From NCBI RefSeq assembly GCF_023973145.1, contig NZ_CP099546.1, positions 3,038,001-3,102,000 of the forward strand: 64,000 bases of DNA, read 5' to 3'. Under the pieces are notes generated by a model that was given only the letters and a program-made list of their open reading frames with translations, ran no database searches and was not told the origin of the DNA. The stretch is from Natronosalvus vescus (GTDB lineage Archaea; Halobacteriota; Halobacteria; Halobacteriales; Natrialbaceae). Shown here in pieces: positions 1 to 6,078 of this stretch (the stretch's first letter is position 1; every line of letters begins with the position of its first letter). The position numbers and the translations under genes were made by a program.

Positions 1-683
1 CTGAACAGCCACGGAACGACGCCGCCAGACAGCAGCGGCACGAGCGCAAGGATCGCTACCGCAAGCCACCAGAGGATCTGCTCGATCTTCTCGTCTTCCG
101 ATCTCGAGTATCCGATCGTAAGCACCGAGTACAGCGGCGAGAAGACAGTGGGGAGTCGGTCTCGGAAGGCAGCTATCTCCGCTCTAAGTGAGAGACACAA
201 ATACGTCAGACTCAGCACGAGGTACAGCGTAATCACAGCGATGTCCCAGGCCAGCGGCGAGTGGTGTACGGTGGCTGGCCACCAGAGGATCGTGTTGAAT
301 ATCCTGTCGGGGCGACCCATGCTCAACACGATATTGAACGCGGCCATGCTGAGCGCAAGCACCGTCAATACCTCCGATACTCGAGCGATGGGGGCGAACC
401 GGTCGATATCGATCACTCGTACGGCAGCCGAGATGGCGATGCCCCCGTGTGCTAGACCGACCCACCAGACGAACCCGCCGATGTACAGTCCCCAGGGAAC
501 CCCTCCGGAGATCCCCCAGTCACCGATGCCAGTCACCGCCCAGACGCCGGCGTTGAGCTGGTACGCCCATGCGATCAGGAACAATACCGTCCCGAGTAAA
601 AAGATCACGAGAAGCGCGTAGTACCGTTTCGATGTGTGCTCTAACGGGTACAGGATCCTGTCCTCGAAGACGTCAGTACTCAT
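1..683 (-). CDS. NrfD/PsrC-family membrane subunit of a respiratory oxidoreductase, 3' end cut by window
   Basis: Translating the minus strand from the ATG at 683 gives an open frame to the window edge (about 227 residues, no stop), so the gene is partial. It begins MSTDVFEDRILYPLEHTSKR and then shows hydrophobic helices with NrfD hallmarks: a W-G-I-S-G-G-V-P-W-G-L-Y stretch near residue 52 and R-P-D-R-I-F-N near residue 115. NrfD/PsrC proteins anchor Fe-S and molybdopterin subunits and exchange electrons with quinone. Its ATG overlaps the stop of the Fe-S subunit gene (ATGA), so the two are translationally coupled. The catalytic molybdenum subunit, if there is one, must lie outside the window. 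The family is clear; the substrate cannot be told from here. Confidence 0.88.
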   Translation of the reverse strand, partial: MSTDVFEDRILYPLEHTSKRYYALLVIFLLGTVLFLIAWAYQLNAGVWAVTGIGDWGISGGVPWGLYIGGFVWWVGLAHGGIAISAAVRVIDIDRFAPIARVSEVLTVLALSMAAFNIVLSMGRPDRIFNTILWWPATVHHSPLAWDIAVITLYLVLSLTYLCLSLRAEIAAFRDRLPTVFSPLYSVLTIGYSRSEDEKIEQILWWLAVAILALVPLLSGGVVPWLF

Positions 684-1939
684 TGATCCCCACCCCCATC
701 GTCCGCGAGCGTCTCCATGCCGAGATCTTCGTAGGTGAACGGTCCATCCGTCGGTGTTGCGTTCTTCGATGGCTCGTTACCTAGATAGACGACGTTCGGC
801 TCGTTTCCTTGTTCCTCGAGTAGCTTGAACCGGGATTGGTCTCGGTTCTCTCGAAGATACTGGCGGGGTTGGCTGTCCGCATCGTTCATGTCACCGAAGT
901 GGATCGCATCGACGGGGCAGTCGTCCTCACAGGCGGTCGTCCCCCGTTGAGCGCTGTCGTCCTGTCGGTGGACGCAGAAGGTACACTTGCCCATGACACC
1001 TGCGGGTGGCGGCCCGCCGACTCGTCGATCGTTCCTATCAGTGTCCGACCCGATAAAGCCGGGAGACTTGTCGGTCGGCTCATCCTTCCCGAGGAAGTTT
1101 ACACCGTACGGACAGGCGACCTCGCAGTACTTACAACCGATACATCGATCGTAGTCCGTGAGGACGATACCATCTTCCTGACGTTTGAACCGCGATTGGG
1201 TCGGACAGACGTACGTACACGACGGTTCGGAGCAGTGTTGGCACGGACGGGGCATCTGTCCCTCGCTCACGTCGTCGTACTCCGTTTCCTCGTATCGGAA
1301 GACGTGCATCCACTGGCTGCCGCGGTCGGTATCGTTCTCCCGTTTACAGGCTTCCGCACACTTCAAGCAGGCAATGCATTGATCCGTGTCAATCACCATC
1401 CCCAGCTGGACGTCATCCCCGTCGGAATCTGCCGTGCTCGCGGGTGTGTTAACTGCTCGGTCGAGACAACCGGCCACGCTCGTTGCCGCTCCCGCTACGG
1501 CCAACCCACCCATTGTCTTTAGCAATCCTCGCCGGGAAGGTACCGCGTCTCCTCCGACATCGGGAACACCGGGAAGCGCATCCCCGTCGTCGTCAGTTGT
1601 CGCTTTGACCGTTGTTTCGTACGTCGGCCGCAGATCGATCCCGAACTCCTCGAAGACTGCTTCGTGGTGTTTTTCGTGGAACGCGGCCTCGGTCATTTCT
1701 CCCCGTGCAAGGGCCATCGCGTCTCTACTGATCTCGATGCCCAGGTTCGTGTCGAACTCCACGGTCTCGAGTTTGGCCTCGGCGCGGGCTTCCCAGTCAT
1801 CATCGAGGTCATCAGGAGTCCATCCCTGACCGAGATCTGGTATCTCAGGCGCTGTTTCTGGCGATTCGTCGCTCTCATTTGACCCGGAACATGTCCCCGA
1901 ACCACAGGTACACCGGGACGGATCTATGTCGGAACTCAT
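680..1939 (-). CDS. Tat-exported 4Fe-4S ferredoxin subunit (DmsB/NrfC/PsrB-like) with long N-terminal extension
   Basis: A 419-residue electron-transfer subunit of DMSO-reductase-family type. Several 4Fe-4S cysteine groups are visible, including C-I-A-C-L-K-C near residue 190, C-Q-H-C near 232, C-I-G-C-K-Y-C near 270 and C-T-F-C near 320. A twin-arginine motif (SRRGLLKTMGG) with lipobox V-A-G-C sits at about residues 135-158, after an acidic, initially Cys-rich extension of some 130 residues (C-T-C-G-S-G-T-C near the start), which is unusual for a Tat signal. I chose the ATG at 1939 because GAGGG lies about 8 nt upstream; an in-frame ATG at 1960 is the alternative. It precedes and overlaps the NrfD-like gene, so the pair probably passes electrons between quinone and a partner enzyme outside the cytoplasm. 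Confidence 0.85.
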   Translation of the reverse strand: MSSDIDPSRCTCGSGTCSGSNESDESPETAPEIPDLGQGWTPDDLDDDWEARAEAKLETVEFDTNLGIEISRDAMALARGEMTEAAFHEKHHEAVFEEFGIDLRPTYETTVKATTDDDGDALPGVPDVGGDAVPSRRGLLKTMGGLAVAGAATSVAGCLDRAVNTPASTADSDGDDVQLGMVIDTDQCIACLKCAEACKRENDTDRGSQWMHVFRYEETEYDDVSEGQMPRPCQHCSEPSCTYVCPTQSRFKRQEDGIVLTDYDRCIGCKYCEVACPYGVNFLGKDEPTDKSPGFIGSDTDRNDRRVGGPPPAGVMGKCTFCVHRQDDSAQRGTTACEDDCPVDAIHFGDMNDADSQPRQYLRENRDQSRFKLLEEQGNEPNVVYLGNEPSKNATPTDGPFTYEDLGMETLADDGGGDQ

Positions 1940-2009
1940 ACCGATACCCTCATCATGCATATGGATCCCACCGGACTGCGGGTAGGGTTGCGTGTGGAAA
2001 TTACAGGAG

Positions 2010-2217: not shown

Positions 2218-3786
2218 ATGACTGAGGAAACTCGAGGTCGATCGGACGACGAAATCGCGAACCTGAGTATCGATGAAGCCAGGGACGCTCTGAAAGGCGA
2301 AGCGGCGATTCCAATGCGGGCGTCTGGAACGCTTCGACGTCGGTTTCTATTAGCTATGGGCGCAACGGCAACGTTTGGCGCAAGCGCAGGATGTCTCGGT
2401 ATGTTTAGCGAGGATCCCGAGGCGGCAGGTAGTGAAGATGACGACATCGACTATTCGGAGATAGAGAAGTTCAAACTCGATTGGGTTCCCAAGCAGATTC
2501 TCAAGAACCTGAACGTCAAGATGGCGTTCAACAACGAACAGTTCTTCTTCCGATTCAACTGGGAACAGCCGAACGCTGGCGGTTGGTTCCACGATTATCT
2601 CATCTACCACGAAGACGAAGGAGAGTGGGTGCGCCACGCCAGCCCGGATCCGTGGGTGGCCGATCAGGATCATCCGGATCACATCGGCTTTTACGAGGAT
2701 CGCGTCACGTTCCTCTTAGACGACGGTTCCGTGAAGGGATTCGAGAACTTCGGCGGCTGGCTCACCGTACACATGGGAACTCGGAGTCTTCCGGGCGCTG
2801 CCACGTCGGAGGAGGTCGAGAACCATCCACATCTCGGTGACGACGGACTCGGGCGGAACGACGTCCGAAAGTTCCTCCCACAATCGCGCGAGGGCGAGTG
2901 GTGGGAATCCCCGTGGGACGATATTCGTTCACAGGAAGAACTGGATCAGCTGAAAGAAGACGGCGTCTTCGTCGATTTGCCGATGTTTCGCGCGCACCGG
3001 AGCAATCCGATGGGTTACGCCACGGATCATCACGTCCTCGAGTACCGGCACGGTGACGAGGGGAGCAACACATTCGGGTCACAGGGCTGGGATCCGGAGA
3101 CCGGGCCGGAGTACATGTTTGATCCGGACGTGGTCGAAAACGGTGCGCTCGATCACGAGCGGATGCTCGAGGGTGACTATCGCCAGGATCTGTTCTACGA
3201 CGATCGTGACGAGTGGCTCGGGGAGGAGGAACCCTACTATCTAGCCGACGAGTGGATGGTCGAGTTCGATCCGGAGGTCGCCGAACGGGATGGGGCAGCC
3301 ATTCCCCGTCGACCGCTCCAGCAACCCGAAGGAAGTGCCGCTGACTGGCAGTGTCGAGGCGTATGGGACGATGGTGAATGGACTGTGGATATGTGGAGAG
3401 ACCTCGAAACCGAGAACCCCCTGGACACCAAACAACTCGAATCCGGCAGGGTCTACGACTGGGCACCAGCCATCCACCATGGCTACAATGCACGGTGGCA
3501 CTGGGTGGCATACCCGTACAAGTTAGGGCTCGGGACGGGAACGGAAGCCGATTTCCACGCCGTACAGTTCGACGGCGATGCCCCCGATTGGGACGATATC
3601 CCGACCCACACGATACCGCTGATCTACCCCGGGCAGGTCGACTGGACGTGGCTCACCAGCAAGGAACACCGCGGATACATCCCAACTCGAAACGACGAAA
3701 TGTCGATCTGGGACGTCCACGAGAATCCGCGACGGATGGCGGCGATGGTGCTCGGCAAGGAAATCGGAGAAGATCCGCGGCGGTGA
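2218..3786 (+). CDS. Ethylbenzene-dehydrogenase/DMSO-reductase-like haem-binding domain Tat lipoprotein
   Basis: A 522-residue protein starting MTEETRGRSDDEIANLSIDE. A twin-arginine signal (LRRRFLLAMGATATFGASAGC) is at about residues 40-61 with lipobox S-A-G-C, so the mature protein is probably a lipid-anchored exported protein. The rest resembles the haem b-binding gamma subunit of type II DMSO-reductase-family enzymes (EbdC, DdhC, ClrC family): a D-L-P-M-F-R-A-H-R-S-N-P-M-G-Y block near residue 258, V-L-E-Y-R shortly after, and W-T-V-D-M-W-R-D-L near residue 390. It is more than twice the length of bacterial gamma subunits. It heads a plus-strand set with the next two genes, 1 nt before the GluTR-like ORF. 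The start at 2218 fits the TATA box at 2157; a longer upstream frame lacks support. Confidence 0.82.
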   Translation: MTEETRGRSDDEIANLSIDEARDALKGEAAIPMRASGTLRRRFLLAMGATATFGASAGCLGMFSEDPEAAGSEDDDIDYSEIEKFKLDWVPKQILKNLNVKMAFNNEQFFFRFNWEQPNAGGWFHDYLIYHEDEGEWVRHASPDPWVADQDHPDHIGFYEDRVTFLLDDGSVKGFENFGGWLTVHMGTRSLPGAATSEEVENHPHLGDDGLGRNDVRKFLPQSREGEWWESPWDDIRSQEELDQLKEDGVFVDLPMFRAHRSNPMGYATDHHVLEYRHGDEGSNTFGSQGWDPETGPEYMFDPDVVENGALDHERMLEGDYRQDLFYDDRDEWLGEEEPYYLADEWMVEFDPEVAERDGAAIPRRPLQQPEGSAADWQCRGVWDDGEWTVDMWRDLETENPLDTKQLESGRVYDWAPAIHHGYNARWHWVAYPYKLGLGTGTEADFHAVQFDGDAPDWDDIPTHTIPLIYPGQVDWTWLTSKEHRGYIPTRNDEMSIWDVHENPRRMAAMVLGKEIGEDPRR

Positions 3787-3787
3787 G

Positions 3788-4702
3788 ATGATGCAATTCG
3801 CGTTCGAATCGATCGCCTGCGTTCGTGTGTCCGTCACCCAAACGACGAACTCGATGACGATTCAGCGACGCGTCGGTGCGCTTCGAGACGCATTGATCGA
3901 CCGCGGTGGTCTCGAGGAGGTATTCGTCGTTGGAAACGCAGCCGTCCTTGACGCCTACGTCCGAGGTTCCGGGCCGGAGATCATCGACGAGCTTCGAGCG
4001 GAGGTCGAGATTCGGAACGGTACATTCCCGGGAATCCATAACGATGCTGTCCACCCCGTCGGTGACGTCGACGTGTTCGTTGGAATCGAAGCCGTCGACC
4101 GCCTGTTCGCTCGAGCAGCACGTACCGACACCCTCGACGCGACCAGCCACCGTTCGGCCGGGAGCATCCCCGAAGCATACGTCCAGGCGCGGCGATCAGG
4201 GAAGCTCACCGGGCCGCTGGCACGACTCGTCAGGTGCGCATGTCGTGTGCACCGGCGGGTTCGATCGGGAGCCAGTCCAGAACGCGTCGTTCACCGGGAA
4301 CGTGGTCGTCTTGTCGGCGAGTTTGAACCAACCGTACAGACGGCCGTCCTCGAGGACGTTCACGAGCACGCAGAAGAAGTCAAACGGCGCGAGGTCGAAC
4401 GGGCACGGCGGATGCTTACGGCGGCGGACGGCCTGACCTCCGAACAAGAACGCGTTCTCGAAGGACTCGCCGCTACGTTGGTTGATCGTCTCGTCACTGA
4501 GCGGCTTGCTTGCCACCTCGAGCGGAGCCCAGTGGGGAAGGTCGACGACGAACACTCGAGGACGTCGGGCAGGCCGAGAACACAGTTAAGCGAGTCGCTT
4601 GCGGCGATCTTCGAACTGTTCGAATTCGAGGTGAGCGAGGCCGACCGCGACCGCGAGTTCACGAACGATCACACGAGCAACCGGATAGAGGGGGAGTCGT
4701 GA
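3788..4702 (+). CDS. Degenerate glutamyl-tRNA reductase (HemA)-like protein lacking catalytic Cys and NADPH domain
   Basis: A 304-residue protein recognisable as a reduced GluTR. Residues 30-60 (A-L-I-D-R-G-G-L-E-E-V-F-V-V) align by eye with the segment that leads into the catalytic T-C-N-R motif, but that motif reads N-A-A-V (A51 in place of Cys). Residues 103-160 follow the family's second N-terminal part, ending A-C-R-V-H-R-R-V-R-S, although the conserved G-E-D-Q-I-L-G-Q motif is lost. The Rossmann NADPH domain, about 150 residues, is absent. Residues 178-240 (H-A-E-E-V-K-R-R-E-V-E-R-A, then L-T-S-E-Q-E-R-V-L-E-G-L) match the helical dimerisation domain. It cannot be an active reductase. 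It sits between the haem-domain lipoprotein and a membrane protein (GTGA overlap), suggesting a haem-related accessory role, which is inference. Confidence 0.72.
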   Translation: MMQFAFESIACVRVSVTQTTNSMTIQRRVGALRDALIDRGGLEEVFVVGNAAVLDAYVRGSGPEIIDELRAEVEIRNGTFPGIHNDAVHPVGDVDVFVGIEAVDRLFARAARTDTLDATSHRSAGSIPEAYVQARRSGKLTGPLARLVRCACRVHRRVRSGASPERVVHRERGRLVGEFEPTVQTAVLEDVHEHAEEVKRREVERARRMLTAADGLTSEQERVLEGLAATLVDRLVTERLACHLERSPVGKVDDEHSRTSGRPRTQLSESLAAIFELFEFEVSEADRDREFTNDHTSNRIEGES

Positions 4703-5388
4703 CCGGGTCGCCGTCGTCTACTCGTTGGGGGCACGGGTCGGTGCTCGCCGCCGCCGGAATCGTTCTACTCGCCCATCCGGCGTACGTGAGTTCCCTGTCG
4801 GTCTACCCGGGGACGGACTGGGGATTCCTCCCGCTGTTTCACGCCGCGTTCACCGCGCTCGGATTGCTCGCGGTCTCGGCTGGTGGGCTTCTCGTACGTC
4901 ACGGACGGATCGTTCCGCCAACGCGGGAACTACTCGTCGTCACAACAGTTACGGCCGTGGCCGTTCCGCTGTACGGCATCGTTCTCCTTCAGACGTACGG
5001 CACTAGTGGCCCCATCATGGAGGGGTACGGCATTAAACGAGCGTTCGTCGGCGGTCTTGTCGTGGGCTCGTTCCTCATCGGCTTCAGCCTCTCGAGTCGG
5101 CGATGGCGAGCGGCGGCGGCTGGTGGTGCCATCCCATCTGTTCCGGCTGCGTTCGTCGCCTTCGAGTGGGTACTCGTCGTTCTCGAGTATCGACCCGGTG
5201 CGCTTCTCGGCCCGGTCGTCGATGTCTGGTTTCTCTTGACAGCCGCACCCCTGCTCGAGATCCCGTACCTCGGGACGGGAATCCTTCTCGTTGCGGGGAC
5301 ACTCGGCTTCTGGATGGGCGTTCCGGCGAAACGTGCTACACCCGAGTCGAACCGTCGCGAGTCCGCATCCGGTAACGGCCACTCCTGA
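4699..5388 (+). CDS. Polytopic membrane protein of unknown function, last gene of the haem-domain operon
   Basis: The start is a GTG at 4699 overlapping the upstream TGA, giving 229 residues. Six to seven hydrophobic segments can be seen, for example around residues 10-30, 38-65, 75-95, 110-128, 135-160 and 165-205, and the tail is polar (residues 210-229). I recognise no family. Tight coupling to the GluTR-like gene and to the haem-domain protein suggests it belongs to the same respiratory system, perhaps as a membrane anchor or quinone-facing subunit, but no haem-ligating His pattern typical of cytochrome b is obvious. Confidence 0.7.
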   Translation: MTGSPSSTRWGHGSVLAAAGIVLLAHPAYVSSLSVYPGTDWGFLPLFHAAFTALGLLAVSAGGLLVRHGRIVPPTRELLVVTTVTAVAVPLYGIVLLQTYGTSGPIMEGYGIKRAFVGGLVVGSFLIGFSLSSRRWRAAAAGGAIPSVPAAFVAFEWVLVVLEYRPGALLGPVVDVWFLLTAAPLLEIPYLGTGILLVAGTLGFWMGVPAKRATPESNRRESASGNGHS

Positions 5389-5489: not shown

Positions 5490-5807
5490 TCAACGGTCGG
5501 AGACGGTTGTCTCGGTGACGTCGGCGCCGTCACGGGTACCAATGGGGTCGGAGGTCTCCCTCTCGAGACGCTCGAACAGGTCGTCGTGGATTTCGGGTAC
5601 TTCGTCGGTTCCCTCCTCGTTCGGTACCTCGATACGGATCACGAACTGTATCGCATCGATGTACTCGCCACGATGAACCTGAAACAGTCTCGCACAGCCA
5701 CAGTCGAGCCACTCGAGCGCCCAGTCGATAAGCCAGGATTCGTGGTCGTACACCGGTTTTTGGTGTGTGTAGACCAGTTCGTACCGGTAGCTCCCGTGGG
5801 AATTCAT
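5490..5807 (-). CDS. Small conserved-looking hypothetical protein
   Basis: A 105-residue soluble protein starting MNSHGSYRYELVYTHQ. It has aromatic and acidic content typical of haloarchaeal proteins (S-W-L-I-D-W-A-L-E-W-L-D-C-G-C-A-R-L-F-Q in the first third) and an acidic tail. I do not recognise the family. An in-frame ATG at 5840 is possible; the 5807 start fits better with a TATA-like GATATAGC on the minus strand at about 5855-5862. It stands alone between the membrane protein gene and the HTH-10 regulator and points the opposite way to the former. Confidence 0.55.
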   Translation of the reverse strand: MNSHGSYRYELVYTHQKPVYDHESWLIDWALEWLDCGCARLFQVHRGEYIDAIQFVIRIEVPNEEGTDEVPEIHDDLFERLERETSDPIGTRDGADVTETTVSDR

Positions 5808-6078
5808 GGGAGTAATACTCCCCCTACCAGTATGGGCCACTCAACCGATGGATCGCTATATCGCGGTAAGACCATAATTATTTGCAGGTGACAGTAAGCA
5901 GTGAGTGTACCCCTCTATACTACACCCGTTTTTGTAGCGACCGCATCTACTCAAACGGATATCGAACGCGAGCAAACGTGCCCGAACCGTTAGACGTTGC
6001 CCTGTCGGTATCGATAGTCACCGCTCCAGTGGTCGCATCGATCGGGGAGGTTCACCCCTTCGACGGCTGGGGTTGGTC

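Follow-up and report, generated by a model that had tools for sequence, protein, structure and literature searches.

The gene at 3788..4702 lies in a respiratory operon of Natronosalvus vescus, and its product resembles glutamyl-tRNA reductase (GluTR, HemA), which catalyses the committed first step on the archaeal route to haem and cobalamin. Control of this step in archaea is poorly known. What is a relative of a haem-synthesis enzyme doing beside the genes of a respiratory complex, and is it still an enzyme? We refer to the protein as pseudo-GluTR, and to the whole stretch of 64,000 nucleotides that was analysed as the window. The gene and its parts are as follows.

3788..4702, + strand: pseudo-GluTR, a GluTR paralog of 304 aa that lacks the active site and the NADPH domain; ATG start
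3803..4267, + strand: residues 6-160, a degenerate version of the catalytic (N-terminal) domain of GluTR (E=4e-8 to HemA2 in hhalign; Foldseek/VIA match to 1GPJ)
3935..3946, + strand: N-A-A-V replacing the catalytic T-C-N-R (alignment)
4250..4273, + strand: junction, residues 155-162, site of the missing whole NADPH domain (the N alignment ends at 160, the C alignment begins at 155)
4340..4621, + strand: GluTR dimerisation domain, residues 185-278, with a conserved Leu-Phe at its end (PF00745, alignment, dN/dS)

The preliminary description of this gene proposed that both ends of the protein descend from GluTR, and profile comparisons agree. The Pfam dimerisation family (GlutR_dimer, PF00745) matches residues 185-237 with E=8e-5 and 23.3 bits, just over its gathering score of 22.9; in the genome search it scores 24.8 bits, which passes the curated cut-off. 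NCBIfam HemA models match weakly at both ends of the protein. Profile-profile comparison with haloarchaeal HemA aligns residues 155-290 to the spine and dimerisation domain (probability 95, E=1.7e-8), and residues 6-160 are colinear with the entire HemA N-domain. The N part scores 33.1 (E=5e-4) against canonical HemA and 58.4 (E=4e-8) against HemA2, our name for a full-length GluTR paralog linked to EB_dh, the lipoprotein encoded next to pseudo-GluTR. None of 200 column shuffles per comparison scored as high (mean 14.6 and maximum 24.5 for canonical HemA, mean 13.7 and maximum 23.8 for HemA2), so the resemblance is well beyond chance, and a chance origin is ruled out.

Structure prediction and structural alignment, which had been proposed as a check, also lead to GluTR. 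An AF2 model made with HemA relatives in the alignment has a pLDDT of 81, its top structural matches in the PDB are GluTR without exception, and its residues 6-181 match GluTR 1GPJ (chain 1-324) with a Z score of 14.1, unrelated folds reaching at most 7.2. Part of this agreement is built in: AF2 given the three orthologs alone returns an uninformative model with a pLDDT of 45. A PDB sequence search with a three-sequence pseudo-GluTR profile gave no match. The independent evidence for the ancestry of the N-domain is the shuffle test. A tree places the long form and HemA2 apart from 18 canonical HemA proteins (support 93/91), the branch to the long form being very long. Pseudo-GluTR derives from the full-length paralog HemA2, which has TCQR at the catalytic motif.

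Canonical HemA consists of PF05201, PF01488 and PF00745 (structure 1GPJ), and pseudo-GluTR has in common with it the fold of the N-domain, the spine helix and the dimerisation domain, in colinear order. Unlike HemA it lacks the catalytic Cys, the GED motif and the NADPH domain, and its gene is an additional copy next to a respiratory operon; the one ordinary HemA found in a search of the window genome has 446 aa and is encoded at another locus. In the residue-by-residue alignment the counterpart of TCNR reads NAAV in the window and TDEI in Natronoglomus, the catalytic Cys is gone and the GEDQ motif is lost. Among the HemA N-domain residues that are at least 95% conserved (n=30), pseudo-GluTR keeps 12 and HemA2 22. 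In the alignment the spine helix follows the N-domain directly, the NADPH domain being skipped, and Pfam finds no match to the NADPH-binding Rossmann domain (PF01488) in the protein. These losses, of the catalytic Cys and of the NADPH domain, had been read correctly from the letters, and the GluTR ancestry of both flanking parts and the repurposing of the protein are supported as well. Judged by its predicted protein, pseudo-GluTR has the N-terminal homology of a GluTR enzyme and neither of these two catalytic features.

An assembly error would be a trivial explanation for the missing domain. Among 61 genomes (its own and those of relatives) two orthologs were found, in Natronosalvus hydrolyticus (G004, same genus, 82% identity) and in Natronoglomus mannanivorans (G031, 45-46%); the remaining matches are ordinary HemA or short dimer-domain ORFs.

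L032:7978-8895 and L033:8445-9386: orthologs of pseudo-GluTR

The gene has the same position and length class in all three species, and an assembly error is excluded because the architecture is identical in their separate assemblies. A search of viral contigs for relatives found none.

The neighbouring genes indicate which system the protein belongs to.

1..683, beyond the window edge (L031:9379-10683), - strand: NrfD membrane subunit (PF03916, E=1.2e-16)
680..1960, - strand: multi-[4Fe-4S] ferredoxin subunit (FeS) with Tat signal, DsrO-like (Pfam Fer4; NF045797 160.9 bits, below the cut-off of 200)
2218..3786, + strand: EB_dh haem-b-domain lipoprotein (PF09459, E=5.8e-33, 115.3 bits; Tat signal RRRF at 2335; lipobox AGC)
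4699..5388, + strand: conserved multi-span membrane protein with about 6 hydrophobic segments (hydrophobicity); overlaps the pseudo-GluTR stop
5490..5840, - strand: small conserved protein with relatives in L154, L155 and L166
6079..6729, - strand: HTH_10 / DmsR-like regulator that is kept next to the operon (PF04967, PF24277)

A single base separates the EB_dh stop from the pseudo-GluTR ATG. EB_dh carries the conserved motif RWHWV.YPYKLGLG. The membrane protein at 4699-5388 has no Pfam family above the cut-off, is kept in L154, L155 and L156, and is conserved in four species that share the operon layout. The operon resembles NrfD, FeS and haem modules of the DsrMKJOP or Qrc type in its DsrO-like ferredoxin, and the NrfD protein of the related operon in G001 is DsrP-like (NF045798). 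DsrMKJOP has a c-type cytochrome at the place of EB_dh; unlike it, the window operon has a haem-b lipoprotein, and no other Dsr subunits were seen. Reading the ORFs of L031, L033 and L154-L156 gave no candidate for a molybdopterin catalytic subunit (type II DMSO-reductase, EbdABC, DdhABC), and no CGAA-N4-TTCG or denitrification motif was found upstream of the window EB_dh. Natronoglomus is reported to be obligately aerobic, and nitrate, sulfur, thiosulfate, DMSO and fumarate did not support its growth (PMC10963439).

EB_dh homologs were searched for in 341 haloarchaeal genomes and GTDB species contigs, and their surroundings were read. Beside EB_dh, genes of GluTR descent come in three forms. 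The first is the complete HemA2, with TCQR, GED and Rossmann domain, in G058, G169 and G285/SHR40.

L146:6569-7843, L148:10242-11516 and L163:11513-12847: HemA2

PF05201, PF01488 and PF00745 are all present in both distinct HemA2 sequences scanned. HemA2 shares the EB_dh neighbour with pseudo-GluTR and has the closest N-domain, but it is a complete three-domain enzyme, and it adjoins EB_dh at loci that have an RND transporter nearby in place of FeS and NrfD genes. The second form is the dead two-domain protein of the window, N. hydrolyticus and Natronoglomus. The third consists of proteins of 107-153 aa with only the dimerisation domain, in Natronococcus pandeyae, Halorubrum vacuolatum, Halorubrum spp., a Natrialbaceae MAG, and G001 and G003 of the window genus. 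The N. pandeyae gene immediately follows EB_dh, the place that pseudo-GluTR has in the window. This series beside EB_dh, from complete enzyme through dead two-domain protein to dimer domain alone, is a clear case of an enzyme turned non-catalytic partner.

Is the association specific to the haem-type lipoprotein? A GluTR-derived gene is present in 9 of 9 distinct loci that combine EB_dh, FeS and NrfD (the window, L154, L155, L156, L072, L165, L167, L168 and L169) and in none of 22 FeS(-NrfD) loci without EB_dh, one of which, L190, has FeS without NrfD. The probability of this split is about 5e-8 if the loci are independent, a value that is only a guide because the loci are related, although they include two different gene orders. 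In these related operons the gene thus depends on the haem-type lipoprotein, and the specific link that the preliminary description had drawn between the two proteins stands. The check that it had proposed, co-occurrence across haloarchaeal genomes, came out positive for the nine operons. EB_dh is not sufficient for the presence of a GluTR-derived gene: there is none at about 13 EB_dh loci of the ~420-aa type, most of which have MFS transporters, nor at the Tat-type loci L135, L149 and L166.

In several of the loci without EB_dh that were inspected, its position is taken by a halocyanin (L176, L179, L186) or a 2Fe-2S lipoprotein (L152, L153); at others a different gene precedes. The exported redox lipoprotein of haloarchaeal FeS-NrfD-small TM-Mrp cassettes is interchangeable (halocyanin, 2Fe-2S ferredoxin or haem-b EB_dh), and the window genome also has a halocyanin version of the cassette (L186).

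A dead duplicate might simply be decaying, without present function. Between the window and N. hydrolyticus the N-domain does evolve fast, with a dN/dS of 0.52 for residues 1-162, and the whole gene has 0.41 against 0.10 for NrfD and 0.16 for FeS. Yet the ORF is intact in three species, the gene is retained in every EB_dh, FeS and NrfD operon, and residues 163-245 have a dN/dS of 0.14 in the same pair, which makes decay very improbable. The contrast between dimer part and N-domain rests on this close pair because it is gone in the comparison with Natronoglomus (0.37 in each part). The strongest selection in pseudo-GluTR falls on the dimerisation domain, which is also the part that lineages keep.

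The protein had been proposed to carry haem to the lipoprotein. In favour of a haem carrier or chaperone for EB_dh, the gene always stands beside the haem-type lipoprotein in the EB_dh, FeS and NrfD operons, and all three long proteins have Cys11, His84 and His192. They are invariant only there: the family alignment contains no conserved His, Cys, Met or Tyr, and several relatives consist of the dimerisation helices without any N-domain. With no potential haem ligand conserved family-wide, this proposal was not borne out, and we consider it improbable.

GlutR_dimer modules also occur on their own in other haloarchaeal loci. They resemble pseudo-GluTR in the dimerisation domain and in a tetrapyrrole or haem neighbourhood (EB_dh/NrfD, NorZ/denitrification or a CbiC fusion), and differ in having no N-domain and in being 90-153 aa long or fused to CbiC. 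Stand-alone ORFs lie in NO-reductase or denitrification clusters of G041, G338, G269, G271, G184, G257, G340 and G055, many of which also contain NirJ/AhbC/AhbD-like radical SAM genes and DUF2249. Others are found beside a haem-copper oxidase and a CtaB-like gene (G337) and beside KatG (G223, G064). The genomes G055 and G064 were looked at once the pattern was already known, and both fit. In G318 a cobalamin operon encodes the domain as a fusion with CbiC (precorrin-8X methylmutase).

L078:6541-7518: GlutR_dimer-CbiC fusion

Sampling 97 non-haloarchaeal genomes of the phylum turned up ordinary HemA only, plus one doubtful match. Two matches were set aside, one that is probably a HEAT-repeat protein (G356) and a weak one with an internal stop and no tetrapyrrole context (G036). 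The denitrification clusters at L035, L073-L077, L080 and L196 combine GlutR_dimer-only genes with DUF2249 and radical SAM genes (TIGR04347/TIGR04053), and the radical SAM gene of L035 is apparently frame-shifted.

These relatives bear on the main rival to our reading, a structural role in which pseudo-GluTR would serve the EB_dh/FeS/NrfD complex as a helical subunit for assembly or structure, its old dimerisation helices serving as a coiled-coil scaffold with no link to tetrapyrrole synthesis left. Tight operon linkage, 1 bp after EB_dh, fits such a role, and dimer-only forms are enough in several lineages. The HemA-like PPT.SLR segment is lost from the NrfD-linked forms, with mostly TER in its place, which means that the dimer surface may have changed and which also counts against the adaptor reading given below. 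The rival does not readily account for the absence of the gene from the 22 loci without EB_dh, for HemA2 adjoining EB_dh where there is no FeS or NrfD gene, or for related modules in cobalamin and NO-reductase clusters. We regard it as rather unlikely, though less so than haem carriage.

Since relatives that keep the dimer part alone also stand beside haem systems, the pattern suggests that one respiratory complex has a private link to haem supply. Pseudo-GluTR may act in assembly or in coordinating that supply. We tentatively propose, with a probability of about 0.4, that this dead HemA2 descendant is a dedicated partner of EB_dh which ties ALA and haem supply to biogenesis of the haem complex, as a homodimer or by pairing with HemA. 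The protein has no evident signal peptide, and in the cytoplasm it would homodimerise or form mixed dimers with the housekeeping HemA. Dimerisation would change how active or stable ALA synthesis is, or where it takes place. Haem would thereby be on hand while the Tat-exported lipoprotein folds; we infer the partner, the direction of the effect and the loading before export. Tat substrates fold and are loaded with cofactors in the cytoplasm, so the Tat signal of EB_dh implies that it should fold and take up haem in the same compartment as pseudo-GluTR.

The region of the dimerisation domain of Arabidopsis GluTR has been solved on its own (4yvq), which we cite as a precedent for such an adaptor. 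In plants the partner proteins GBP and FLU control GluTR (review PMC9992760). Pseudo-GluTR differs from them in that the candidate partner is itself GluTR-derived. GBP and FLU have folds unrelated to GluTR, and 4yvq is presumably a complex with the regulator FLU. Neither stand-alone GlutR_dimer proteins nor the EB_dh/pseudo-GluTR operon were found described in the open-licence literature searched.

A wider version of the adaptor proposal, which we hold to be somewhat doubtful, is that the haloarchaeal GluTR dimerisation domain is a portable demand-signalling module, each haem- or cobalamin-dependent system having its own copy (alone, fused to CbiC or within a dead GluTR), which pairs with the housekeeping HemA and steers or tunes ALA synthesis for that system. 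Control would then be simple and work through shared subunits, with a dead paralog or a dimer-only relative assigned to each such tetrapyrrole-dependent system.

Two further observations concern single loci. L048 (G272) was considered as an EB_dh-linked HemA copy and rejected; L048:1342-2670 encodes a full-length HemA paralog of a third kind, with TCHR, and adjoins a CobT-like gene. The window EB_dh and its counterpart in N. hydrolyticus (L032:8897-10441) have a dS of 0.97 and 66% amino-acid identity, whereas their neighbours have a dS of about 0.2. The difference suggests that only EB_dh has undergone allele replacement.
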